The notes under the pieces are model-generated. The model ran no database searches. It was given only the letters and a program-made list of their open reading frames with translations, and had not been told where the DNA came from. From contig JBDSQB010000016.1 in the NCBI GenBank assembly GCA_039930045.1, forward strand, positions 310,001-374,000: a DNA stretch of 64,000 nucleotides, read 5' to 3'. The stretch comes from Chthoniobacterales bacterium. GTDB taxonomy: Bacteria > Verrucomicrobiota > Verrucomicrobiia > Chthoniobacterales > DASVRZ01. Below, one piece after another: positions 2,952 through 64,000 of this stretch. The position numbers and the translations under genes are program-made. Position 1 is the stretch's first letter. The number at the start of each line of letters is the position of its first letter.

Positions 2952-5042
2952 TCACTCGGCCGCTTGAACGGCGGTGAGGGCGATGGTGTAGATGATGTCG
3001 TCAACTAGCGCGCCGCGTGAGAGATCGTTAACTGGGCGTCGCAGGCCCTGAAGCATGGGGCCGATCGAGATGACGTTAGCGCTTCGTTGCACCGCTTTGT
3101 AGGTGGTGTTCCCGGTATTCAGATCGGGAAAAACGAACACCGTCGCACGTCCGGCGACCAGACTGTCCGGTGCTTTTTGTTTGGCGACGTCGAGCGTGGC
3201 TGCGGCGTCGTATTGGAGGGGACCGTCGATGAGTAACTCGGGTCTCAATCCTTGAGCGATGAGAGTTGCCTCGCGCACTTTTTCCACATCCACTCCCGAG
3301 CCACTTTCGCCGGTGGAATAGGAAATCATGGCCACGCGTGGAAGTATGCCAAAGCGAGCGGCTGAGTCCGCACTCTGAATGGCTATTTCTGCCATCGTTG
3401 CAGCGTCTGGATCTTGTATCACCGCGCAATCTCCATAGACCAGAACCTGGTCTGGCAGACACATGAAAAAGACCGACGACACCGACTTGATACCCGGCTT
3501 GGTTTTGATGAGTTGAAGCGCAGGCCGGATAGTATTCGCGGAGGAGTGAACCGCACCCGAGACCAAGCCGTCCACCTCGCCGAGTGCTAACATCACCGTG
3601 CCGAGCACGACATTGTCTTCGAGTTGATCGGCCGCGGACTGGCGCGGAAGATTCTTGTGCTTTCGCATTTCAACCAAGGCATCGACGTAGTTGACGCGGA
3701 CCGCGTCGGCGTCAATAATTTCGACTCCGGGGGGAAGCTGCACATCCTGCGCAGCGGCGACACGTCGAATCTCGCCGGGATCTCCCAGCAGGACGCAACG
3801 GGCGAATCCGCGTTCTGTGCAGGTGGCCGCCGCACGAATGGTGCGAGGCTCCGAGCCTTCGGGAAGGATGATTCGTTTGTTAGCCACACGGGCGCGTTCG
3901 GTGAGTTGGAAGCAGAAAGCGGCTGGCGAAAGACGCGTTTCAAGATCGCGCTTGCACCGTTCCTCGATCCACTTGGCGTCGATGTATTCGGACACAAATT
4001 CCATGGCTTCATTGATGCGCTGTGAATCATCCGCAGGCACCTCGGTGCTCATGGCGTTAAGGCGGGAGGCGGTGTCGTAGGAATTCGTCTGCACGCGCAG
4101 TACTGGCAGACCGCTGACAATTCCGGGATAGCAAAGTTTGTAAATTCTCTCGTCCAGCACGGTATCACCGGTGAGGACGAGACCGGCAATCGGGATTTTA
4201 TTGAGCGCGGCCATGCATGTCGCCAGCAGGATATCGTCACGATCCGCCGGCGCCACGAGGATGTTTCCAGGCCGAAAAACGTGCATCATGTTAGGCACCG
4301 TTCGTGCCAGCAGATGGATCGCTTTCACACGCCGGGAATCGATTTCGCCAGCGGATAGAATTTCCGCGTCCAGATGGCGGGCAATGTCGATCGTGCGACA
4401 ATAAGTGAGCGCCTCGTTTTCCGGAACAAAGCCGACCAGCGGAGGCATGGTTTCGGACAAGGCTTCATAAGTTTTTCGTGCAGTGCGCAAGGCCTCCGCC
4501 GGATTTATTTCGCCTACACGAACGCGGTTTAAAATGCAGCCTGCAATTCGGCTTCGGTCGCCGCTCGCGAAACGTCGCGCGGCCAGATCGATTTGATCGC
4601 GAAGCTGCTGGGTCAGGCCGTTGGCGGCATTCCCCACAAGAATGACTTCCGCGCTCAACGTCCGAATTAATTCCGCGTTGAGCTTGCCAATGTAGGAATC
4701 GTCCGCGACCGGCACCAAACCTTCCATCACCATGATGTCGACATCCTGAGAGGACTCGTGGAATTCCCGCATGACGATCCCCATCAACTCATCGATTCGA
4801 CCTTCGCCGACCATCTTTTCGGCGCGGTCCAGACTGATCGGCGTCGCGGGCCGAAGGCTCGTTGTCGCGCGGATAAAATGGGTTGAGCGATCGGGCCCCT
4901 CCTCACCGAGCATGATCTGGCCAATGGGTTTGCAAAATCCGACACGCAACCCGCGTTTATCCAGCGCCCTCACGAGTCCTAGCGAAACTGCGGTGATGCC
5001 GGCTTTGCTGGAGATCGGAACGAGGAAAAAAGTGTGTTTCAT
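2952..5042 (-). CDS. pta: Phosphate acetyltransferase, long form
   Basis: This 696-residue protein has the two-part build of long bacterial Pta. The N-terminal half is a P-loop-like dethiobiotin-synthetase-type plus DRTGG regulatory region (FLVPISSKAGITAVSLGLVR at the start). The C-terminal half, from about residue 380, is the catalytic PTA domain with IILPEGSEPRT, LVSGAVHSSANTIRPALQ and DGPLQYDAA. It converts acetyl-CoA and phosphate to acetyl phosphate. Its ATG at 5042 overlaps the ackA stop in an ATGA arrangement, so the two are translationally coupled, and it is the last gene of the pyruvate-to-acetate operon. No clear terminator hairpin is visible in the 177 bases after it. Confidence 0.95.
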   Translation of the reverse strand: MKHTFFLVPISSKAGITAVSLGLVRALDKRGLRVGFCKPIGQIMLGEEGPDRSTHFIRATTSLRPATPISLDRAEKMVGEGRIDELMGIVMREFHESSQDVDIMVMEGLVPVADDSYIGKLNAELIRTLSAEVILVGNAANGLTQQLRDQIDLAARRFASGDRSRIAGCILNRVRVGEINPAEALRTARKTYEALSETMPPLVGFVPENEALTYCRTIDIARHLDAEILSAGEIDSRRVKAIHLLARTVPNMMHVFRPGNILVAPADRDDILLATCMAALNKIPIAGLVLTGDTVLDERIYKLCYPGIVSGLPVLRVQTNSYDTASRLNAMSTEVPADDSQRINEAMEFVSEYIDAKWIEERCKRDLETRLSPAAFCFQLTERARVANKRIILPEGSEPRTIRAAATCTERGFARCVLLGDPGEIRRVAAAQDVQLPPGVEIIDADAVRVNYVDALVEMRKHKNLPRQSAADQLEDNVVLGTVMLALGEVDGLVSGAVHSSANTIRPALQLIKTKPGIKSVSSVFFMCLPDQVLVYGDCAVIQDPDAATMAEIAIQSADSAARFGILPRVAMISYSTGESGSGVDVEKVREATLIAQGLRPELLIDGPLQYDAAATLDVAKQKAPDSLVAGRATVFVFPDLNTGNTTYKAVQRSANVISIGPMLQGLRRPVNDLSRGALVDDIIYTIALTAVQAAE

Positions 5043-6244
5043 GAGGGATCAAGTGGTTTGAGAAATTCTGCAGTGCAGGCGGCAATGGCGCGTTCCTCGC
5101 TGGTCGGAATCACGAGACAGGTGAGGCCCGAATCCGCCGAAGTAATCCTGCCATTGGTGTTTGCCCCGTGAACTGCGTTTAGCGCCGGATCGAGCTTCGG
5201 GCGCAGGAGAGCCAGGAAATCCAGTGTCCGCTCGCGAACTCGTGAGGTGTTTTCTCCAATGCCGCCTGTGAAAACCAGCGCATCGACCCGATCCAGTCCG
5301 GCCGCCATCGCGAGGACACCTTTGGCGAGACGATAACAAAAAAGATCAATCGCGAGAGTGGCGCGCTGGTAGCCTTCCCCGGCGGCCTGGATGATGGCGC
5401 GCATGTCGTTACTCACTCCGGAAACGCCCAGTAGCCCGCTCCGTCGATTGAGCATTTCATTAACCTCTTCAGCCGACATGCCGGCGACGCGCTGGAGATA
5501 GGATTGGATGTTAGGATCCACGTCTCCGCTGCGCGTTCCCATCATCAACCCCTCCAGCGGCGTCAGGCCCATCGTCGTATCGACGCTCTTTCCGTCGCGA
5601 ATGGCGCAGGCACTGCATCCGTTTCCCAAATGCGCCGTAATCAGATGCAACTCCGACAGCGGTCTGCCCAGGCTTTCCGCCGCTTTTCCCGCCACATATT
5701 GGTGACTGGTTCCGTGTGCTCCATAACGCCGAACCGCATACTTTTTGTAAATTTCGTAAGGCAACGCATAGGACCACGCGTGCTCAGGCATGGTTTGATG
5801 AAATGCCGTGTCGAACACCGCGACGTGAGGCACGTTGGGAAAAATCTTCCGCGCAATCCGAATCCCGATCGCGTGGGCGGGGTTGTGCAGCGGTGCCAGA
5901 TCGCGACAGAGCTCGATCTTCGCCAGCACGTCCGAGTTGATGAGGGTGGCTTTGTTAAAATATTCGCCGCCGTGAACCACACGATGCCCGACTGCATCGA
6001 CATGCAGTGGTTTTCCGAAAGCTTCTTCCAAGACATGGACCGCTTCCGTGAGAGCTTGTTCATGGTCCGCTCCGGCAAAGTCTCTAGTCGTTTCCAAGCC
6101 ACTGATCTTCCAGCGCCCTGTAGCATCGGGACCGCCGAGACGTTCAAAGACTCCCTCCGCGCGAAATTCGCCACCAACGAGCAATGCGAATTTCAGCGAC
6201 GAGCTGCCACAGTTAACAACGAGAATGTGGGGGAGGGGATTCAT
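5039..6244 (-). CDS. ackA: Acetate kinase
   Basis: This 401-residue protein is full length for AckA. Family motifs in order are VNCGSSSLKFAL at the N-terminus, GHRVVHGGEYF, VAVFDTAFHQTMP, the ITAHLGNGCS nucleotide loop, GLTPLEGLMMGTRSGDVDP and FTGGIGENTSRVRE. It transfers phosphate from acetyl phosphate to ADP, yielding acetate and ATP, the energy-saving step after Pta. The stop overlaps the pta start by four bases and the fumarase gene ends 21 bases upstream, so it is inside the PFOR-to-pta operon. Nothing is unusual in the sequence. Confidence 0.97.
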   Translation of the reverse strand: MNPLPHILVVNCGSSSLKFALLVGGEFRAEGVFERLGGPDATGRWKISGLETTRDFAGADHEQALTEAVHVLEEAFGKPLHVDAVGHRVVHGGEYFNKATLINSDVLAKIELCRDLAPLHNPAHAIGIRIARKIFPNVPHVAVFDTAFHQTMPEHAWSYALPYEIYKKYAVRRYGAHGTSHQYVAGKAAESLGRPLSELHLITAHLGNGCSACAIRDGKSVDTTMGLTPLEGLMMGTRSGDVDPNIQSYLQRVAGMSAEEVNEMLNRRSGLLGVSGVSNDMRAIIQAAGEGYQRATLAIDLFCYRLAKGVLAMAAGLDRVDALVFTGGIGENTSRVRERTLDFLALLRPKLDPALNAVHGANTNGRITSADSGLTCLVIPTSEERAIAACTAEFLKPLDPS

Positions 6245-54462: not shown

Positions 54463-55506
54463 TTAATCAAACCGCCGGTGCAGCCAGGCCACCGGGAAAC
54501 GATCGCCAGGGCAATCGGTGGGCACGGGATTGATCTCCTTGTGAGCGCGAACGATGGAATATTTTCCCTCGACCTTGCCGCAACGGCTGCGCAGATAACG
54601 AATGAGTTCGTCCAGCGCCTCGAGTTGTTTCTGAGTCGGTTTGTCGCGGTTGAAATCGCCAACCAGGCAGATGCCGAGTGAGATATAATTCAGGTAATCG
54701 CTGTGCACGTGGCCGCCGTTGATCTGCTTCACCCAGCGGCTGCCGAGTTCGATCTGACCATCACCGGTCGAGGTGCCGTTACCGATGACGAAATGGTAGG
54801 CCATGCCGTTCGGCATTTTGCGCGTGTGCCGATGGTAGTAATCGAAAATCTTCGCGTTGCCCTGCCGAGTTCCACTGTTATGGACGACGATATATTTCCA
54901 GCGGCCGCGTTTGACTGGGGCACCGTCGATGCCGCGTTTCACATTGCCGACGATGTAGCGATACTTCGGCCCACCCCACCAACTGCGCGGGGGCGGAACG
55001 ACTTCCACTTCTTCGTTGCCCGAGCGCCGGATGGTGATCGGAGCCTGCGGAGTGGCAGTGCTTTGGAAAAATGGCTTCGCGGTGGGCTTGGGAAATGGCG
55101 TGGGCGCGGGCGTCGGAGAAGGCGTGGCGCGCGGCGTGCGCTCGGGCGTCTCCTCAGCGGTCGGACGGGGAGTCGGACGCGGCGTTTCCTCGGGAGTTTC
55201 ACGCGGCGTCTCGCGGGGAGTGCGGCGCGGCGTGGGTGTCTCCTCCGGTGTTTCCACCGGAGTGGGTTTGGGGCGAGGGGAGGATCGGGGTTTCGGAGTC
55301 GCAGTCGGCTCGGGCGGCAGCGTGTGCATTTGCTCGCGGGCCTTTAGAAACATCTCGCGCTTTTTCCGCGTGTCGTCCGAGATCTGACTCTGCGAAAACG
55401 ATCCGCCCAGCAGGAGAAACGCGAGAACGAGGGACAAATGGCGGAGCACGGAGCGGAGAGTAAAAGAATTGTCGAAGTGAGGCAAGGCACGCTTGGAAAA
55501 ATCCAC
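54463..55506 (-). CDS. Secreted N-acetylmuramoyl-L-alanine amidase (Amidase_2/PGRP fold) with Pro/Thr-Glu-rich spacer
   Basis: The 347 residues have a signal or N-terminal anchor (HLSLVLAFLLLGGSFSQSQ near 24-42). A spacer (about 68-150) is built of TPEETPTPRRTPRETP-type repeats. The catalytic domain has YIVVHNSGTRQGN, GMAYHFVIGNG, HVHSDYLNYISLGIC and the late AHKEINPVPTDCPGD, giving the zinc His, His and Cys of the Amidase_2 family. It should cut the lactyl-amide bond of peptidoglycan outside the membrane. The epimerase follows two bases later. The spacer probably lets the catalytic part reach into the wall. Confidence 0.88.
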   Translation of the reverse strand: MDFSKRALPHFDNSFTLRSVLRHLSLVLAFLLLGGSFSQSQISDDTRKKREMFLKAREQMHTLPPEPTATPKPRSSPRPKPTPVETPEETPTPRRTPRETPRETPEETPRPTPRPTAEETPERTPRATPSPTPAPTPFPKPTAKPFFQSTATPQAPITIRRSGNEEVEVVPPPRSWWGGPKYRYIVGNVKRGIDGAPVKRGRWKYIVVHNSGTRQGNAKIFDYYHRHTRKMPNGMAYHFVIGNGTSTGDGQIELGSRWVKQINGGHVHSDYLNYISLGICLVGDFNRDKPTQKQLEALDELIRYLRSRCGKVEGKYSIVRAHKEINPVPTDCPGDRFPVAWLHRRFD

Positions 55507-55648
55507 TTTTACTCCCGTCTCGGTTTCGTGAGAAAGGTTACGATCCGGTGACGACGCCGGAAAAATCTTCCCAAAAGCCGTCGCCTAAGTTATTCACAGC
55601 TTGTTCACAAACGAACGATTTCCCGCTCCCCCACAGCTCTCATTTCCT

Positions 55649-57586
55649 ATGAAGAAAATCCTCATTTTCACCGCAGGTTATGGCGAAGGCCACAACACCG
55701 CCGCCCGCAACATCCGCGACGCGCTCGAGTTTATCGCCGCCGACGAAGTCCAGGTCGAAGTCCTCGATCTCTTTGAAACCTGTTACGGCAAACTCAACGA
55801 GTTCGTCAAAAAAGCCTACCTCACCGCCATCAACAAAGCCCCCAAAGTCTGGGGCAAAATCTACGAGCTGATCGACAACACCCGCATGGTCCAGAGCAAC
55901 ATGGTGGCTCTCGGTCGCATGAAAAAAGCGTTGGCCGAACTCCTCCAGAGCACCGAACCGGACGTCATCCTCTGCACCTATCCGATCTATAATTATCTCA
56001 TCGACGATATCTATAGCGACGGACGCCCTCGGCATTTCTCCCAAGTCACCGTCATCACCGACTCCCTCACGATCAACTCCGTCTGGTATCGTTGCCACAG
56101 CGATTACCTCCTCGTCGCCAACGACGACAGCGCCCGTGTCCTCCGGCAGGCCGGCATCGAGGACGAAAAAATCCGCGTCTTCGGCTTCCCCGTCACCCAT
56201 CAATTTGCCTCGCTCACCAGCCAGCGCGGCCCCATGGAGAACGTCCTGAAAGTCCTCTTCATGATCAACTCCGGCAAAAAGGAAGCTCCCGAAGTCGCCC
56301 GCAAACTCGCCGCCCGCAAAGACGTGCAACTCACCGTCACCGTCGGACGCGACCTCACCCTGCGGAAGGAAATCGAAGACGCCGTCTCCGGTGCCGCCAA
56401 CCCCGTGGAACTCCACGGCTGGACCACGAAAATCCCCGAACTCCTCCTCTCCCACCACGTCCTCATCAGCAAAGCCGGGGGAGCCACCGTGCAGGAATCC
56501 ATCGCCAGTTGCACCCCCATGATCATTACCCAGGTCGTCCCTGGGCAGGAGGAAGGCAACGCCCGGCTCATCGTCGAAAACCACTGCGGCACCCTCGCCA
56601 CCAACGCCGACGCCATCGTCAGCGCCATCGATATTGCCCTCGAGGATCGCGGCGCGCTTTACCAGCAATGGCAGACCAACATCACCCGTCTCAGCCGTCC
56701 CGAAGCCTCCCTCGACATCGCCCGCTTTGTCCTCGAACTCGGTGTCCCCGACAACACGCCCCCGCGCAAGATCGCGAGCTTCGACCGCCACGTTCCACCC
56801 GCCTCCAGCTCGCGCAACCTCCTGATGTGCGACCTGCACACCCACAGCCATTTCTCCGACGGCAAACTCAGCATCCGCGACCTTGTCGATCTCTACGGAC
56901 AGCACGCCTTCGACGCCCTCTGCATCACCGACCACATCTGCGACCACCAGCGTTTATTGGGCAAACTCACCAACCTCACTGGCATGGTCCTCACCCCCGA
57001 TCAAGTCTCCGAATACTTTGAAACCATCGAGCGCGAAAAGAAGCGCGCCTGGGAAAAATACCGCATGATCCTCATGGCCGGGCTCGAGTTTAATAAAGAT
57101 GGGCTCACCAAAAAAACCTCCGCCCACCTCCTCGCCATCGACCTCCAGCAACCCATCGACCCCAGCCTCAGCATCATCGACACCATCGCCGAGATCCACC
57201 GGCAGGGTGCGCTCGCCGTCGCCTCCCACCCGCACGAATTCAAATCCGCCTGGGGCAAGGACACCCTTTACTTCTGGGAAAACATCGACACCTACGCCCC
57301 GCTCCTCGACGCCTGGGAAGTGGCCAACCGCGACGACATCTTCAACCCCGTCGGCCTGAAGCGCCTGCCCTTTATCGCCAACAGCGACTTCCACAAACCG
57401 AAACATCTTTTCTCCTGGAAGACCGCCCTCTTCTGCGAAAAAAGCCCCGAAGCCATCAAAGAATGCATCCGCATCAACCGCGACGTTTTCATCACCCTCT
57501 ACCGCGACGCCAAGATCGGCTTCAGCCACAGCCAGTTGGAAGAGATCGAGACGACGCCTCTGATCCCGCTGCAAATGGCCGGGTAA
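55649..57586 (+). CDS. Fusion of MGDG-synthase-like glycosyltransferase and PHP-domain phosphoesterase
   Basis: From the ATG at 55649 the protein has 645 residues. Part one (1-370) starts MKKILIFTAGYGEGHNTAAR, the UDP-sugar-dependent diacylglycerol galactosyltransferase/UgtP pattern. It includes CTYPIYNYLIDDI, VITDSLTINSVWYR, the KAGGATVQES and PMIITQVVPGQEEGNA donor loops. Part two (about 400-640) is a PHP domain: DLHTHSHFSDGKLSI, ALCITDHICDHQRL, VASHPHEF and FIANSDFHKP, with the expected metal histidines. The first half should make glycolipid; the second would hydrolyse a phosphoester. Fusion of the two is unusual. A TTG 16 codons upstream could extend it, and the start lacks a good ribosome site. 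Confidence 0.88.
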   Translation: MKKILIFTAGYGEGHNTAARNIRDALEFIAADEVQVEVLDLFETCYGKLNEFVKKAYLTAINKAPKVWGKIYELIDNTRMVQSNMVALGRMKKALAELLQSTEPDVILCTYPIYNYLIDDIYSDGRPRHFSQVTVITDSLTINSVWYRCHSDYLLVANDDSARVLRQAGIEDEKIRVFGFPVTHQFASLTSQRGPMENVLKVLFMINSGKKEAPEVARKLAARKDVQLTVTVGRDLTLRKEIEDAVSGAANPVELHGWTTKIPELLLSHHVLISKAGGATVQESIASCTPMIITQVVPGQEEGNARLIVENHCGTLATNADAIVSAIDIALEDRGALYQQWQTNITRLSRPEASLDIARFVLELGVPDNTPPRKIASFDRHVPPASSSRNLLMCDLHTHSHFSDGKLSIRDLVDLYGQHAFDALCITDHICDHQRLLGKLTNLTGMVLTPDQVSEYFETIEREKKRAWEKYRMILMAGLEFNKDGLTKKTSAHLLAIDLQQPIDPSLSIIDTIAEIHRQGALAVASHPHEFKSAWGKDTLYFWENIDTYAPLLDAWEVANRDDIFNPVGLKRLPFIANSDFHKPKHLFSWKTALFCEKSPEAIKECIRINRDVFITLYRDAKIGFSHSQLEEIETTPLIPLQMAG

Positions 57587-57591
57587 AAATC

Positions 57592-60500
57592 CTATGGCGC
57601 TCCGGTCGCGACAATGTTGCCGGCAAACTCCGAAGTGTTGTTTGAAGAGCTGGTCGCAGTGGCCGAAACGCTGTTGCCAATCGGAATGGGCGACGTGAAA
57701 TAAACGCTAAAAGAACCATTGCCTGAGCCATTCGTGGCCACATTTGTGTAGCCCAGAAAGTAGCGGCATCCGCCATGCTGGGAGGCATCGCCCGCAGGCC
57801 CGTGGAAAAATTCGATGCGATAGGATTGATTGGGCTGGCTGTTGAGAGTTCCGGTGAGTGTGGTCCGTGTCGAGCTAACCAAAACAGAGGTTAGAATCGG
57901 GAAATTTTGCAGAGTATTGGGGCCGGTATCGGTGTCGCCGATATCATTGGCGGTGACGCCAAACCCATCCTCGCTGCCTGCGGCCAGGTTGATGGCGAGT
58001 TGCGCGTTTCCGTAGATGGCGTTGCGCTGGATGCGGTTGCCAAACGTGGTGGCGTCGAAAAGGTCGATGCCGCGCAGGTTGTTTCCAGAGATCAGATTGC
58101 CCTGGCCGGAGTTGAGGCCGCCAATGAGATTGCCCGTGGCACCGGAAAAGAGGGCGATGCCACTCCACATGTTTCCAATGGCTGCGGTGGAGCCGGCATT
58201 GAGGCCGATGGTGTTGTTGAGAATGGAGTTATTGGAGGTGCCTGCGCCGCTGAGAGAGACGCCGTAGTTGCCGTTGCCGGAAATGATGTTTGGAGTGCCG
58301 ATGTTGCCGATGACGTTGGCCTGCGCTTCGCCGAAAATATCCACGCCGCTCCAGCCATTGGGCAGGGCCGATGTGCCGGCCGGGTTAAGTCCGATGTAAT
58401 TGTAGGTGATGCTGTTCGAGTTGGTGCCGGTGCCGGAAATGGTGATGCCCTGCTGCTGGTTGCCGGAGATAAAGTTGCGCGCGCCGGAGACAGTGCCGCC
58501 AATGAGGTTGCCCTGGGTTCCGCCGAAGAGGGCGACACCCGGCCCGACGTTGGCGCTGGCGGCAGTGCCGGGGCCGTTGAGTCCGATATAATTGGCGGAG
58601 ACCGTGTTGCCATTGGTTCCCGCACCGTAGATGCCGATGCCGCGATAGTTGTTGCCAGAGATGTAGTTGCGGGAGGCGGCGCTGATGCCGCCAATGGTGT
58701 TGGCCGTGGCGGCGCCAGAGATGTCGATGCCGACATTATTGGGGATGGCCACGGTGCCGGCAGGGCTGAGGCCGATGTAATTGCCGGCAACCACATTGCC
58801 ACTACTGCCTGTTCCATCGATGGCGATGCCCTGGCCTGCATTTCCCGAGATGTAATTACGGCTGCCGGAAACAGTTCCGCCGACCGTGTTGTTTTGCGCG
58901 CCTCCATAGATGCCGACTCCCGAGAAGGCGTTGGCGCGGGCGGCGGAACCAGTGGAATTGAGGCCAATGTAATTGGCGGCGATGGTATTTTGGTTGGTGC
59001 CGACTCCGCTGATGCTCACTCCCTGACTGGCGTTGCCGGAAATGACATTGCGGCTGGCAGAGGTGGTGCCGCCGATGAGGTTGCCACTGGCTCCGTCGGA
59101 GATTTGCACCCCGGCATAACCGTTGGGCACAGATGTGAGTCCCGTATTATTCAGGCCAATGAAGTTGCCGGAGACGATGTTGCCCGTGGTGCCGGGATCG
59201 GCAATGACGATGCCTTGCTGTGTGTTGCCACAAATGACGTTGCGGGCTGTGGAGGTGGTGCCCCCGACGGTGTTGCCACTGGCTCCGGCAGCGATGGTGA
59301 TGCCAGCGTATCGATTGGCGAGGGCGGTGACACCGCTGTATTTGGTGCCAATGTAATTGCCCAGAACCCGGTTGCCGCTGGTGCCGGAACCTGTGATGTA
59401 AATGCCGGAGGCTGTGTTGCCAGAGATCACGTTGCGATCTGCGGCAGTGGTGCCCCCAATGCTGTTATTGATGGCTCCGCCGCTGAGGGTGATGCCGTCG
59501 AAGGCATTTGGCGCGGCAGTGGTGCCGTTCCAGCTCAGGCCGATGTAGCAACCCACGATTTTGTTGGCCTGGGCAGCAGCGCCTGTGATGAGGATGCCTT
59601 CCTGGGAAAAACCATAGATGACGAGGTGGCGGATGGTGCAGTTGGCTGACACCAGCTTCAAACCTGGCGCATAAACATCCGGCGGCTGGGCATAAGTGCC
59701 CGTGAGGACAATGGATGGGCCATACGGATTGGTGTCTCCACCCGCGAGGGTGCCATCGATGGTGGTATTATCCCCGGGAGCGAAAAGCGGGGCAGAAGGA
59801 CGAATGGCAAAGACATGGCCGGCGTACCCCGGGTCGGTGGTCGGGATATTAAAAGTGATCGTCGTCCCCGGATGATCGAAACCATAATAAAGCGCCGCGC
59901 GCAGACTGCCGGGGCCGCTGTCCCGGGTGTTGGTCACGATGGGCGACAAAGCCGTAGCCGCGCCATAGAGGATCGCCATCCCGGCGCGGTCACCGGGGCT
60001 GAGTGGGCGATCGTATTGCTGACCGTAAATGTCGAGATACGCACTGTAGGCGGGTTTCGGCTCGATGGTGTTGAGAGTGGCGGGATTGATCGAAAAAGCA
60101 TTCCGCGCGTAATGCATGATCGAATAAAAATCATACGGCCCATTATTCAGCGAGCTGGGTATGAGGGTGAAATTCCCGTTGCTGGCACCTCCATTGATAT
60201 TCGACGTGAGGATGTTCACATACGTGTCGCGGTCGGAGCGTTGATGCTCGTGGATGAGCCCCAGGGTGTGACCGATCTCGTGGAGAAGCGTTCCCCGATT
60301 CCAGCTCCCGATCAGAAACGTTTGTGCCGGGCCCACCATGCCCACGGCGGATTGTCCGCCTGAAATAGCGGCATTCTCGACCCACATGTAATTTGTCTGC
60401 GTAGTGCGTGGGGTAAATTGCACATTCGCAAAAGTGGTCCACTCGGCGGCGGCATCACGAAACGCGCGTTGATGGGCAGCCGTAACGCCGCTGGCAAACG

Positions 60501-60837
60501 CATAATAAACAATCCCACCGGGCCATTTGACGAGTCCACTCGGACCCGCGCTGCTGGGAGTGGCACTGAAAGTGGAGACGCCTCCCTTGCTGGTAGTGGA
60601 CGTTCCAGCGAGATGATCACGCCAATTTCTAATCACCCCCGCCCGGACTTGCATATCCCCCAGACTCACCAAGTCGTCGTCGCTGGTGGTTTTCTGGAGG
60701 ATTTGGTTATAGGCAGCGAGGCTTGCCGAGGCAGTGCTGCTTTTGATTTGTGCCCAACCGGTGGCCAAAGGCACCAGAAACAATAAAACGACGATCCTTT
60801 GCAGAATAACGCGGATAAGTGGAATGGACACGAGCAT
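57592..60837 (-). CDS. Secreted astacin-like metalloprotease with eight beta-helix repeats
   Basis: The 1081 residues have a signal peptide (cleavage near residue 29, TGWAQ), then an astacin-type catalytic domain. His186 to His198 reads HEIGHTLGLIHEH, with Glu187, and the Met-turn SIMHYARN lies near 240. After a linker (TNTRDSGPGSLRAAL near 305) come about eight 65-residue repeats from about residue 420 to 960. Each contains NTIGGTTSA-type, RNVISGN, GTSGN and NYIGLN words, the pattern of right-handed beta-helix surface proteins. No PEP-CTERM or LPXTG end is visible. It likely acts outside the cell on proteins or host material. The gene is single and its stop lies five bases after the GT-PHP gene. 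Confidence 0.9.
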   Translation of the reverse strand: MLVSIPLIRVILQRIVVLLFLVPLATGWAQIKSSTASASLAAYNQILQKTTSDDDLVSLGDMQVRAGVIRNWRDHLAGTSTTSKGGVSTFSATPSSAGPSGLVKWPGGIVYYAFASGVTAAHQRAFRDAAAEWTTFANVQFTPRTTQTNYMWVENAAISGGQSAVGMVGPAQTFLIGSWNRGTLLHEIGHTLGLIHEHQRSDRDTYVNILTSNINGGASNGNFTLIPSSLNNGPYDFYSIMHYARNAFSINPATLNTIEPKPAYSAYLDIYGQQYDRPLSPGDRAGMAILYGAATALSPIVTNTRDSGPGSLRAALYYGFDHPGTTITFNIPTTDPGYAGHVFAIRPSAPLFAPGDNTTIDGTLAGGDTNPYGPSIVLTGTYAQPPDVYAPGLKLVSANCTIRHLVIYGFSQEGILITGAAAQANKIVGCYIGLSWNGTTAAPNAFDGITLSGGAINNSIGGTTAADRNVISGNTASGIYITGSGTSGNRVLGNYIGTKYSGVTALANRYAGITIAAGASGNTVGGTTSTARNVICGNTQQGIVIADPGTTGNIVSGNFIGLNNTGLTSVPNGYAGVQISDGASGNLIGGTTSASRNVISGNASQGVSISGVGTNQNTIAANYIGLNSTGSAARANAFSGVGIYGGAQNNTVGGTVSGSRNYISGNAGQGIAIDGTGSSGNVVAGNYIGLSPAGTVAIPNNVGIDISGAATANTIGGISAASRNYISGNNYRGIGIYGAGTNGNTVSANYIGLNGPGTAASANVGPGVALFGGTQGNLIGGTVSGARNFISGNQQQGITISGTGTNSNSITYNYIGLNPAGTSALPNGWSGVDIFGEAQANVIGNIGTPNIISGNGNYGVSLSGAGTSNNSILNNTIGLNAGSTAAIGNMWSGIALFSGATGNLIGGLNSGQGNLISGNNLRGIDLFDATTFGNRIQRNAIYGNAQLAINLAAGSEDGFGVTANDIGDTDTGPNTLQNFPILTSVLVSSTRTTLTGTLNSQPNQSYRIEFFHGPAGDASQHGGCRYFLGYTNVATNGSGNGSFSVYFTSPIPIGNSVSATATSSSNNTSEFAGNIVATGAP

Positions 60838-61466: not shown

Positions 61467-63146
61467 TCACGCTTGGAAGACGACTGATTTTACAAACCGC
61501 TTTGCTTGGTCCGCGGCCTCTGACGAAATCATCTCACGCGTGAAAACATCTGCGACGAATGCGGGCCCATGCCCGTCTGCTGCTGGGAAAAAACATTCCA
61601 GTTCGCCAACGGGTACCACATGGATGCGAAGGGCGGCAAGAGCAGCGAGGAGCTGCTCCCCCGTCCGATAGTCTTGTCCCTTTAGAAAGGAAAGCCCCAC
61701 GCTCTTCACCTGTTGCCATGGTGTCGCTCGCCGCAGCAGCCTGTCTATTTCCTTTCCTGCCTTCTTGGGAAAAATCGGCTCCGTTATGTCGTTAAGGATG
61801 CCAGTAATTGCGTCACGGGTTTCTTGAGTCGAAAGCTCCGGCTTTTTGTGGCTGATGACGTGATGCACCGGCTTCCAGAGCGTTTCGATTTGTGTCCAGT
61901 CCCCGCCGTGTGCCTCGACGATGGATCGAAGAGGCTCTTCAGCGCTGAGGACATCAAAATCCGCCACCGTCGAAATTGGAACACCGACACGCTTCAAAGC
62001 GCGAATCACAACCGGCATACGACTTTTCCCGCCGCAGTGCAGAAAGAGTAGATCTGGTCGGCGCAGCGTCGCGTCGTATTGGCAAAGCTCGTCGAGCACC
62101 GCTCCATAGAGAAGACAATCGGAGTCACTCTCGCAAAGGACTACCGCTTCGTGGAACAGACCATCCAAGACGTTGGAGTAGCGCAGGAGCGGGTCTTTCC
62201 ATAACTCTTGAATTTCCGTGGCCTGCAATTCGTTCACGCGATTGACGTTCCCGTCGCGAGTGAGGCGAAGCACGCGTGTTCGGGCGTTCCCAGCATCGAG
62301 CACGCCTTTCAGGAAGTCGCCGCTATGAGTAGCAATGATTGTCTGTGCTCCGGCCGCCTTATCATTAGCGAGCACCGTTCCGAGGAGGCGTGCCTGCGGT
62401 GGGTGGAGAAATGCCTCCGGTTCGTCGAGCAGGATCACCGACCATTCGCCAACAGTGACCTGCAATAGCACGCCGATGTAGCTACGAATTCCGTCGCCCT
62501 GCTGGTGAACCGGCTCCAGCTTTTCAACCGCTCGAACATATTCGACCGAAACACGGTCCTTTCCAGCAGGTGGAATGGGTCGCACGCCGCAATAAAGTGG
62601 TATTTTGGTTCCGGCATTACGATGAACGACAAGGTCTTTATCGAAGGCGGCTTTGAAATAGGTTGAAATCCGGCTTTCAAGGCTGTCATCGCGGGCAAGA
62701 AACTGAATCGGGTGACTTAGCGACTGCTCAGTAAATGGAATGTTCGGCGCTGGTTCGCAAGTCTTAAGACGCTCCTCAGTGTTGATCAGCGTCGCGAAGA
62801 TACCCGTTGCTTGGCCAGGCCCTTCAGGCAGTTGCCAGAAATGAGAGAGGAACTCTATCTGGAAGTTGACGTCGCGGAAACTCACCATTCTCTGCGCTCC
62901 TCCACGGACACAGCCTAGCGCCTCGATGTGTTTTAAAACATCTTGATGGGTTCCTTGACGTCGACTCTTCACAGCGCGGATGACCTGCGTTGGCGGTTCA
63001 TTCTTCATCCGGCTTAAAACATCCCGGAGCGCACGACTCTTGCCGGTGTTATTTGGCCCAACGATGAGCAGCAAGTCGCCCGTCTCCATGGTGACCGTTG
63101 TCCCGTCGCTGAAGGTTAGTGTTTCGATCGTGAGAGAGGGCTTCAT
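61467..63146 (-). CDS. OLD-family ATPase with TOPRIM nuclease domain
   Basis: The 559 residues open with an SMC-like ABC ATPase half: Walker A at 30-37 (IVGPNNTGKS), Walker B VILLDEPEAFLHPP and IIATHSGDFLKG as the switch. From about residue 350 a TOPRIM half has the catalytic Glu in AVVLCESDSDCLLYGAVL and a D-x-D in STVADFDVLS. OLD nucleases act in phage defence and DNA repair; class assignment is uncertain without a partner helicase, and no GajB-like gene is adjacent. The start at 63146 was chosen because its ATG overlaps the stop of a 39-codon upstream gene (ATGA) and the P-loop then falls at residue 30. Codons before it read as an unlikely extension. Confidence 0.87.
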   Translation of the reverse strand: MKPSLTIETLTFSDGTTVTMETGDLLLIVGPNNTGKSRALRDVLSRMKNEPPTQVIRAVKSRRQGTHQDVLKHIEALGCVRGGAQRMVSFRDVNFQIEFLSHFWQLPEGPGQATGIFATLINTEERLKTCEPAPNIPFTEQSLSHPIQFLARDDSLESRISTYFKAAFDKDLVVHRNAGTKIPLYCGVRPIPPAGKDRVSVEYVRAVEKLEPVHQQGDGIRSYIGVLLQVTVGEWSVILLDEPEAFLHPPQARLLGTVLANDKAAGAQTIIATHSGDFLKGVLDAGNARTRVLRLTRDGNVNRVNELQATEIQELWKDPLLRYSNVLDGLFHEAVVLCESDSDCLLYGAVLDELCQYDATLRRPDLLFLHCGGKSRMPVVIRALKRVGVPISTVADFDVLSAEEPLRSIVEAHGGDWTQIETLWKPVHHVISHKKPELSTQETRDAITGILNDITEPIFPKKAGKEIDRLLRRATPWQQVKSVGLSFLKGQDYRTGEQLLAALAALRIHVVPVGELECFFPAADGHGPAFVADVFTREMISSEAADQAKRFVKSVVFQA

Positions 63147-63262
63147 AATGCTTGGGAAAGGCGATCGAGGAAGATTTGTGCCTGCCTTTTTTCTTCCACT
63201 GTGATGTGGGCCTGAGTCCATGCGACAAAGGCTGCTAGTTTGTGGGTAAGGGGGTCGGTCAT
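63143..63262 (-). pseudogene. N-terminal 39-codon remnant of a COG1002-type DNA methyltransferase
   Basis: From the ATG at 63262 the reverse strand encodes 39 residues (MTDPLTHKLAAFVAWTQAHI, then TVEEKRQAQIFLDRLSQAL) and a TGA that overlaps the OLD start. The pattern AFVAWTQAHI followed by EEK-x-QAQIFLDRL is the start of the large single-chain type II restriction-modification methyltransferases (usual form GDEKGEAQIFLDRLFQAFG). There the protein should continue for about 900 residues, but here it stops and the OLD gene begins. It might still be translated as a small coupled leader. Identification is by pattern memory and fairly specific. Confidence 0.6.
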
Positions 63263-63577: not shown

Positions 63578-63720
63578 AAACTTTGTTCCTTTCTAAGCAC
63601 CCACAACTGATTGGGGGTAACGCGTCAACAAACCACATTACTATGTGGTTTCAAGGCTTTGCTTGGGTTGAACAACCCGCGCCAAACCCACAAATCATAC
63701 GTCTGGCCTTTTTAACGCTG

Positions 63721-64000
63721 AAACATACCCCTCTCTCACCCAAACATAACGTCCTTCGACCCAAGCATACCCATCTTGAAGTCAAACATAGCGCCCTTGC
63801 ACCCAAACATAGCGGTCTTGAAGTCAAACATAGCGTCCTGCAACTCAAACATAGGCCTCTTTCACTCAAACATGGCGGATGTGAGGTAAAACATACGGCT
63901 TTGCAGTGGTGACATTCGCGCAGTGAAAGCAAACATACGCAATCGGCTGTCGATCTTTGCGTCCTCGCAGTGGTGCATGGCGGGCTTGCAGGCAAACATA
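63721..64000. repeat. Array of 21-base units with an AAACATA core, running to the window edge
   Basis: From 63721 the sequence is built of 21-base units: 7 bases AAACATA (nine of the first ten units within one change) then 14 variable bases often like GCGTCCTTGCACCC. The phase is exact: unit 14 starts at 63994, the window end. Units 10, 12 and 13 are degenerate in the core. Plus-strand frame 1 gives KHSxLxx heptads but stops in unit 10; the minus frame gives LCLxxR heptads through the whole array. No coding evidence is decisive. The array probably continues outside. Confidence 0.85.

Follow-up and report, generated by a model that had tools for sequence, protein, structure and literature searches.

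The window, a 64,000-nucleotide stretch from a Chthoniobacterales bacterium, carries on its forward strand a single uninterrupted frame of 645 amino acids that opens with an ATG at position 55649 and closes with the stop codon at 57584-57586. A TTG at 55601 provides an alternative, longer start; the ATG is supported by the alignment of relatives, which match from its Met and most of which have ATG, GTG or TTG at the equivalent site. The initial annotation had read the frame as an MGDG-synthase/UgtP-like glycosyltransferase joined to a PHP phosphoesterase. Both transferase motifs and all four PHP motifs that it named are present and Pfam searches agree, confirming that the glycosyltransferase-PHP fusion is real (Table 1). 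An AlphaFold model of the protein, built from 59 fused sequences, had a mean pLDDT of 85.5 and a pTM of 0.77.

Table 1. The fused gene, its parts and its immediate surroundings (positions in the window).
Feature	Position	Strand	Basis
Fused gene: MGDG-synthase/UgtP-like glycosyltransferase + PHP phosphoesterase, 645 aa	55649..57586	+	ORF, Pfam, structure model
Glycosyltransferase half, residues 1-368; motifs GYGEGH, KAGGATVQES, VPGQEEGN	55649..56752	+	Pfam MGDG_synth + Glyco_tran_28_C; MGD1 fold match
Low-confidence linker, residues 374-381	56768..56791	+	pLDDT <50 in model
PHP half, residues 389-623	56813..57517	+	Pfam PHP; 2ANU match in sequence and fold
Two DnaA-box-like copies, 11 bp apart, TTATTCACAGCTTGTTCACAA, 5′ of the fused-gene start	55590..55610	+	Read from sequence; element common to relatives' promoters
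Divergent Amidase_2 neighbour	54463..55506	-	Synteny marker with fused and PHP-less same-order relatives; outside the proposed function

Other ORFs lie beyond the fused gene. On the reverse strand, positions 57592-60837 encode a secreted-looking protein of 1081 amino acids with long GG/GN-rich repeats and a HEIGHTLGLIHEHQR motif that we take to be astacin-like, and positions 61467-63221 a protein of 584 amino acids with an ATPase-like GPNNTGKS motif, which by eye resembles AAA/OLD nucleases. A small forward ORF (63583-63912) consists of a repeated 'LxxKH'-type unit; the opposite strand is open there too.

Pfam assigned residues 15-182 of the fused protein to MGDG_synth (PF06925; 83.2 bits, gathering score 25) and residues 213-321 to Glyco_tran_28_C (23.7 bits, gathering score 22). 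MGD1 (4WYI) was the best match to this half among solved structures, both by sequence (residues 2-373, E 7.9e-28) and by the fold of the AlphaFold model (Z 35.0, rmsd 2.4 over 315 residues, 28% identity). By fold and sequence together, the transferase half is nearest to this galactolipid synthase and to processive diacylglycerol glucosyltransferases. What residues 1-368 share with MGD1 and UgtP/YpfP is the MGD1 fold, the MGDG_synth family and the motifs; the protein differs from them by its low identity to MGD1, by a score of 155.2 bits against the UgtP (PRK13609) diglucosyl diacylglycerol synthase equivalog, which is under the NCBIfam cut-off of 500, and by the added PHP domain. In the alignment of relatives H15 is conserved in 72 of 77 sequences and E283 in all 82. 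A clade of five loci (L046, L049, L050, L052 and L053) combines an H15 to E and a K275 to R change with an intact PHP domain; as a side reading, sugar transfer may be altered or lost in this clade and the phosphoesterase retained.

The PHP domain, starting from residue 395, scored 34.1 bits in Pfam against a gathering score of 26.4. Among solved structures, TM0559 of Thermotoga maritima (2ANU) was the top sequence match to residues 387-623 (E 8.4e-59, 41-42% identity) and also the top fold match, whether the PHP half was taken within the whole-protein model (Z 32.8, rmsd 1.6 over 219 residues, 41% identity) or modelled alone (Z 32.5). The next PHP proteins reached Z 21 and below, and known nucleases, polymerases and phosphatases about 8 to 17 (Endonuclease Q 16.4, RNase AM 14.9). 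TM0559 is free-standing, where the PHP domain described here is fused to a transferase. One paper mentions TM0559 as a solved structure; searches of print found no function for it, and no assay or activity for any family member, TM0559 included. The named PHP subfamilies of NCBIfam all scored under their cut-offs (CehA/McbA 40.2 against 80 bits, HisJ 27.9 against 90.2, RNase Rnm 27.0 against 375), and the 3',5'-bisphosphate phosphatase model was likewise far under its own. Because of these scores, and because fold matches other than TM0559 stay at Z 21 or less, no characterised enzyme tells what the PHP half acts on. Nine residues (H397, H399, D404, H429, E480, H493, H527, D580 and H582) probably make up the metal site, their ligand roles being those known from PHP structures; all nine, and the conserved H529 as well, are invariant across the alignment (89 of 89 sequences). 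The ligands are therefore kept; their loss is what the initial annotation had listed as evidence against its reading. The PHP domain is also better conserved than the transferase, at 70% versus 30% in L049 and 70% versus 39% in L053.

The distribution of the fusion was surveyed at three levels. Within the order, 57 genomes including the window's own yielded PHP in eight, fused in seven (one of them with the gene divided across a contig end) and free-standing in one (G033), whose 3.7-kb locus contains no lipid transferase or other lipid gene. When named genomes were searched with the PHP alignment, 139 relatives emerged; the best 80 were analysed and comprise 75 Verrucomicrobiota-type loci (L038-L112), some filed under other names and probably misnamed metagenome-assembled genomes, and five free-standing Nitrospirota-type ones. 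Of the 75 Verrucomicrobiota-type loci among these best 80, 73 have the transferase within the same ORF, some of them clipped at the end of a contig; the remaining two are a contig-edge case (L093) and an apparent loss of the transferase (L087). Across the phylum, a strong PHP match was obtained in nine of 387 genomes, the window's included, and the remaining eight (L119-L126) all carry the fusion. Carriers include Methylacidiphilum sp. Yel (L061), Methylacidimicrobium cyclopophantes (L058) and M. tartarophylax (L059). Since the same architecture recurs in 73 of 75 loci and in all eight further loci of the phylum, the fusion is not an accident of sequencing or assembly; by the sequence comparisons it is old and conserved. 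The search for similar fusions that the initial annotation called for had a mixed outcome: the fusion is not a one-off, being common within Verrucomicrobiota, while literature searches found no published description or function of a PHP-MGDG-synthase fusion or of a bifunctional equivalent.

In L087, positions 4852-5886 encode the PHP domain behind a brief N-terminal stretch, and no transferase could be detected; its neighbour, cluster c31, also stands beside the fused genes of L084 and L091.

Transferases without PHP also occur in the window's order. The transferase halves of 59 fused sequences were compared with 23 PHP-less transferases from this order and a paralog as outgroup in a quick maximum-likelihood tree, which placed the PHP-less transferases in one group beside the fused ones of the order, inside a set of 49 of which 26 are fused (support 97 and 99); the root of this tree is insecure. 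The divergent amidase adjoins the window's gene, six other fused loci and nine of 20 PHP-less loci. Given the position in the tree within the same order, the long-branch outgroup and the shared amidase synteny, these sequence data are best read as a single loss of PHP within the order. No replacement phosphatase recurred consistently beside the 20 PHP-less transferases, whose neighbours include BrkB, an amidohydrolase, LpxI and others, with a HAD-hydrolase cluster beside two of them. Since PHP-less relatives exist, retention of the transferase does not require PHP.

Sequences 5′ of the fused genes were compared after removal of loci lacking the N-terminus, having less than 150 bp upstream or sharing identical last 80 bases, which left 71. 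Expectation maximisation (EM) revealed tandem 11-bp repeats, and random starts recovered the same motif, the best of them being T.ACc...cCGTCAC..g.tCGTCACat. In cross-validation, 48 of the 71 upstreams scored above the 95th percentile of 528 control upstreams on the repeat model, and 40 above the 99th. A strict pair, [TC]GT[ACT]AC-N5-[TC]GT[ACT]AC, was found in 13/71 fused upstreams versus 5/478 controls (p 5e-9) and a looser pair in 24/71 versus none of the 20 PHP-less ones (p 9e-4), the p-values being descriptive because the relatives are not independent. The 11-bp repeat was seen in 0/20 upstreams of the PHP-less transferases of the same order. A DnaA-box-like element, TTATTCACA (TGTGAA[CT]A), occurs in 30/71 fused upstreams, 8/478 controls and 0/20 PHP-less upstreams, often as two copies 11-12 bp apart, and at 11 bp in the window (Table 1); its carriers include L045-L053, L078, L079, L084, L086, L091, L094-L097 and L101. 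For all these counts, the EM starting consensus, the strict expression and the TGTGAA[CT]A pattern were picked after the upstreams had been viewed, and the controls derive from crude gene starts.

In ten of 12 genomes, among them that of the window, the strict pair is also present upstream of pstC, at a distance of up to 3.6 kb and a density of 0.25 per kb versus a background of 0.015; this sample consisted of 13 regions, minus two on short contigs (L214, L217), plus that of the own genome (L234). Because the pair precedes pstC as well, the tandem 11-bp repeat is probably the Pho box of this clade of Verrucomicrobiota. A weight-matrix scan of the entire pst regions, with a score above 15, gave no match in L234 and six in the relatives' 11 regions, approximately the background level (elsewhere 0.033 per kb). 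The window's own upstream scored -0.15 on the repeat model, with 68% of controls higher, and its TTCACA pair, 11 bp apart, is of a looser type also present in 35 of the 478 controls. Loci named Methylacidiphilum or Methylacidimicrobium were mostly low on the model (L058 2.5, L059 3.2), but L056 reached 12.8 and L062 24.9. Since its own upstream scores low, we infer Pho control in the window's organism from its relatives.

Gene clusters c12 and c13 adjoin the fused gene in four loci (L069, L073, L074 and L112). Their L069 copies score as OlsA/OlsB-like, under the equivalog cut-offs, and the next gene encodes a PhoB-like receiver. An assignment of c12/c13 to PstB/A/C was rejected, the L069 copies scoring as OlsA/OlsB-like acyltransferases.

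A split version of the system was found in Nitrospirota, which among the best 80 of the 139 relatives supplied the closest free-standing PHP proteins (45-47% identity). PHP was detected at E 1e-25 or better in 27 of 148 Nitrospirota genomes; together with two from the named scan these make up 29 loci (L113-L117, L173-L196), some on short contigs. In all 29, an HpnI-like family-21 glycosyltransferase follows PHP on the same strand, with gaps of -9 to 290 bp. Pst, PhoU or PhoA genes are near PHP in 13 of the 29 (in L186 by a weak PhoA match alone), and a less strict pair, T.AC spaced by 11 bp, precedes PHP in 11 of the 29, compared with 0-5 for the twelve alternative spacings between 7 and 19 bp. 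Thus, the same PHP family adjoins a lipid-type transferase in both phyla, in Nitrospirota as separate genes with a family-21 partner and in Verrucomicrobiota as one chain with a partner of the MGDG-synthase type. Pgt of Agrobacterium is itself a family-21 enzyme. The Nitrospirota pairing recalls the PlcP-transferase pairs described for marine bacteria (PMC4796936) and the Pgt of rhizobia, the Agrobacterium enzyme being reported to prefer diacylglycerol and to have a predicted Pho box (PMC3972451).

In 24 of the 29 loci the PHP-GT21 pair also has a GH1 glycosidase-like gene nearby. It might serve in glycolipid breakdown upon the return of phosphate.

A transferase that acts on diacylglycerol needs a supply of it, and under phosphate stress phospholipids can be the source. 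In marine Proteobacteria the supplier is PlcP, as reported in PMC4796936. As the PHP domain is fused to one lipid transferase and adjoins another of an unrelated family, amid Pho genes and under Pho-like boxes, it would most simply be the diacylglycerol supplier. The reading that we favour, with somewhat more belief than doubt, is that the fused protein is a two-step lipid-remodelling enzyme of phosphate starvation. The C-terminal PHP domain, with a site of the three-metal type, would hydrolyse a phosphoester of a membrane lipid, removing the head group of a phospholipid in the manner of a phospholipase C or the phosphate of phosphatidate, and would leave diacylglycerol; the N-terminal domain of the MGDG-synthase/UgtP type would then move sugar from a UDP-sugar onto that diacylglycerol. 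If the two sites are coupled, the net outcome would be conversion of a phosphorus-containing lipid to a glycolipid with phosphate freed, and in many relatives the gene is apparently under the phosphate-starvation (Pho) system. The observations behind this proposal are the domain architecture with its conserved ligands, the persistence of the fusion among relatives, the pairing of PHP with a lipid transferase in Nitrospirota, the neighbours that belong to the Pho regulon or to ornithine-lipid synthesis, and the 11-bp repeats. Weighing on the other side are the low repeat score of the window's own upstream, the free-standing G033, the transferase-less L087, the five loci with altered transferase motifs, the PHP subfamily scores under cut-off and the existence of PHP-less relatives. 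Because PHP enzymes can cleave phosphate diesters, as reported for Sb-PDE of Sphingobium TCM1 (PMC5460133), action of the phospholipase C type is plausible on chemical grounds, with dephosphorylation of phosphatidate as a near alternative. Sb-PDE, likened here by its description, is a PHP-superfamily zinc enzyme of 413 amino acids, an environmental phosphodiesterase for which the portion of PMC5460133 that we cite describes no transferase domain.

PlcP is a calcineurin-like phosphoesterase. The corresponding Metallophos family has no Pfam match in the fused protein, which contains PHP instead. The predicted conversion otherwise resembles that of the PlcP-Agt system of Proteobacteria (PMC4796936; for Methylosinus OB3b, PMC9239053), described as a phosphoesterase and a lipid glycosyltransferase, encoded within the Pho regulon or close to it, that turn phospholipid into glycolipid via diacylglycerol. 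Cells with that system are described as also making ornithine lipids, and OlsA/OlsB-like genes adjoin four of the fused loci. The differences are that PlcP and Agt are two separate proteins and that Agt is classed as a GT4-group enzyme (PMC9239053), whereas here PHP and an MGDG-synthase type transferase form one chain. PlcP is reported as absent from verrucomicrobial methanotrophs (PMC9239053), whereas records named Methylacidiphilum and Methylacidimicrobium have the fusion, which speaks for the favoured reading; this absence is not phylum-wide, since PMC4796936 lists PlcP in Verrucomicrobia among marine clades. More broadly, the PHP family may be a new phospholipase C or phosphatidate phosphatase family of the PHP superfamily, unrelated to PlcP and recruited at least twice to phosphate-starvation remodelling, beside GT21 in Nitrospirota and fused to the MGDG-synthase type in Verrucomicrobiota, which would account for how verrucomicrobial methanotrophs do without PlcP; we regard this as a tentative extension, possible and somewhat short of probable.

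The initial annotation had suggested that the fused enzyme may link sugar transfer with loss of a phosphate from a lipid or a sugar nucleotide. The lipid half of that suggestion, still a prediction, fits all the findings; a new sugar-nucleotide step is less likely than phospholipid-to-glycolipid conversion because of the Pho-box-like repeats, the Pst/Pho and ornithine-lipid neighbours and the split version in Nitrospirota. The best rival, itself unlikely, has the PHP half splitting UDP, the by-product of the transferase, into UMP and phosphate, thus driving the transfer and saving phosphate with no action on the lipid. Such a role would account for the pairing with two unrelated UDP-sugar transferases, is compatible with the Pho setting and has a precedent in the by-product removal once proposed for the PHP domain of replicative polymerases, as cited in PMC3666897. 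By-product removal does not, however, predict that both partners should be lipid transferases or that four loci should lie beside genes of the ornithine-lipid type, and the PHP models for enzymes acting on nucleotides (RNase Rnm and the 3',5'-bisphosphate phosphatase) score far under cut-off. Next in likelihood, and already rather improbable, comes the general idea of the initial annotation, in which sugar transfer would come first and PHP would then dephosphorylate a phosphorylated or phosphoglycosylated lipid, as a trimming step in the synthesis of a special glycolipid. The same domain facts and the reported ability of Sb-PDE to act on phosphate diesters (PMC5460133) would suit it, but no gene for a phosphorylated intermediate was recognised nearby, and the Nitrospirota neighbours are Pst/Pho genes and the GH1 glycosidase-like gene.

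Nucleases such as Endonuclease Q and RNase AM are among the fold relatives of the PHP half (see Z scores above), which could indicate another task under phosphate stress, for example the scavenging of nucleic acids or phosphodiesters, with a non-lipid acceptor for the transferase. We give this only a low probability; it sits poorly with a transferase that is specifically MGDG-synthase-like and with an HpnI-like partner in Nitrospirota. Least probable is that the PHP half serves chiefly as a regulator or scaffold, which would sense metal, nucleotide or phosphate and catalyse little. The PHP domain of Escherichia coli DNA polymerase III is described as having a structural role; it has, according to the same source, lost several ligands (PMC3666897), whereas the likely ligands are invariant in the family described here. 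The greater conservation of PHP than of the transferase in L049 and L053 argues in the same direction.

Many bacteria cope with scarce phosphate by exchanging phospholipids for sugar lipids, a process for which PlcP has served as the marker in genomes and metagenomes. This remodelling has so far been credited to two unrelated, separate enzymes. If the favoured reading, conversion of phospholipid to glycolipid by the fused protein, is true, surveys based on PlcP would overlook part of Verrucomicrobiota and Nitrospirota. The TM0559 family of PHP proteins would also gain its first proposed function. A natural single-chain converter of phospholipid to glycolipid would be a handy enzyme, and the cultivable methanotrophs that carry the gene would allow a direct test.
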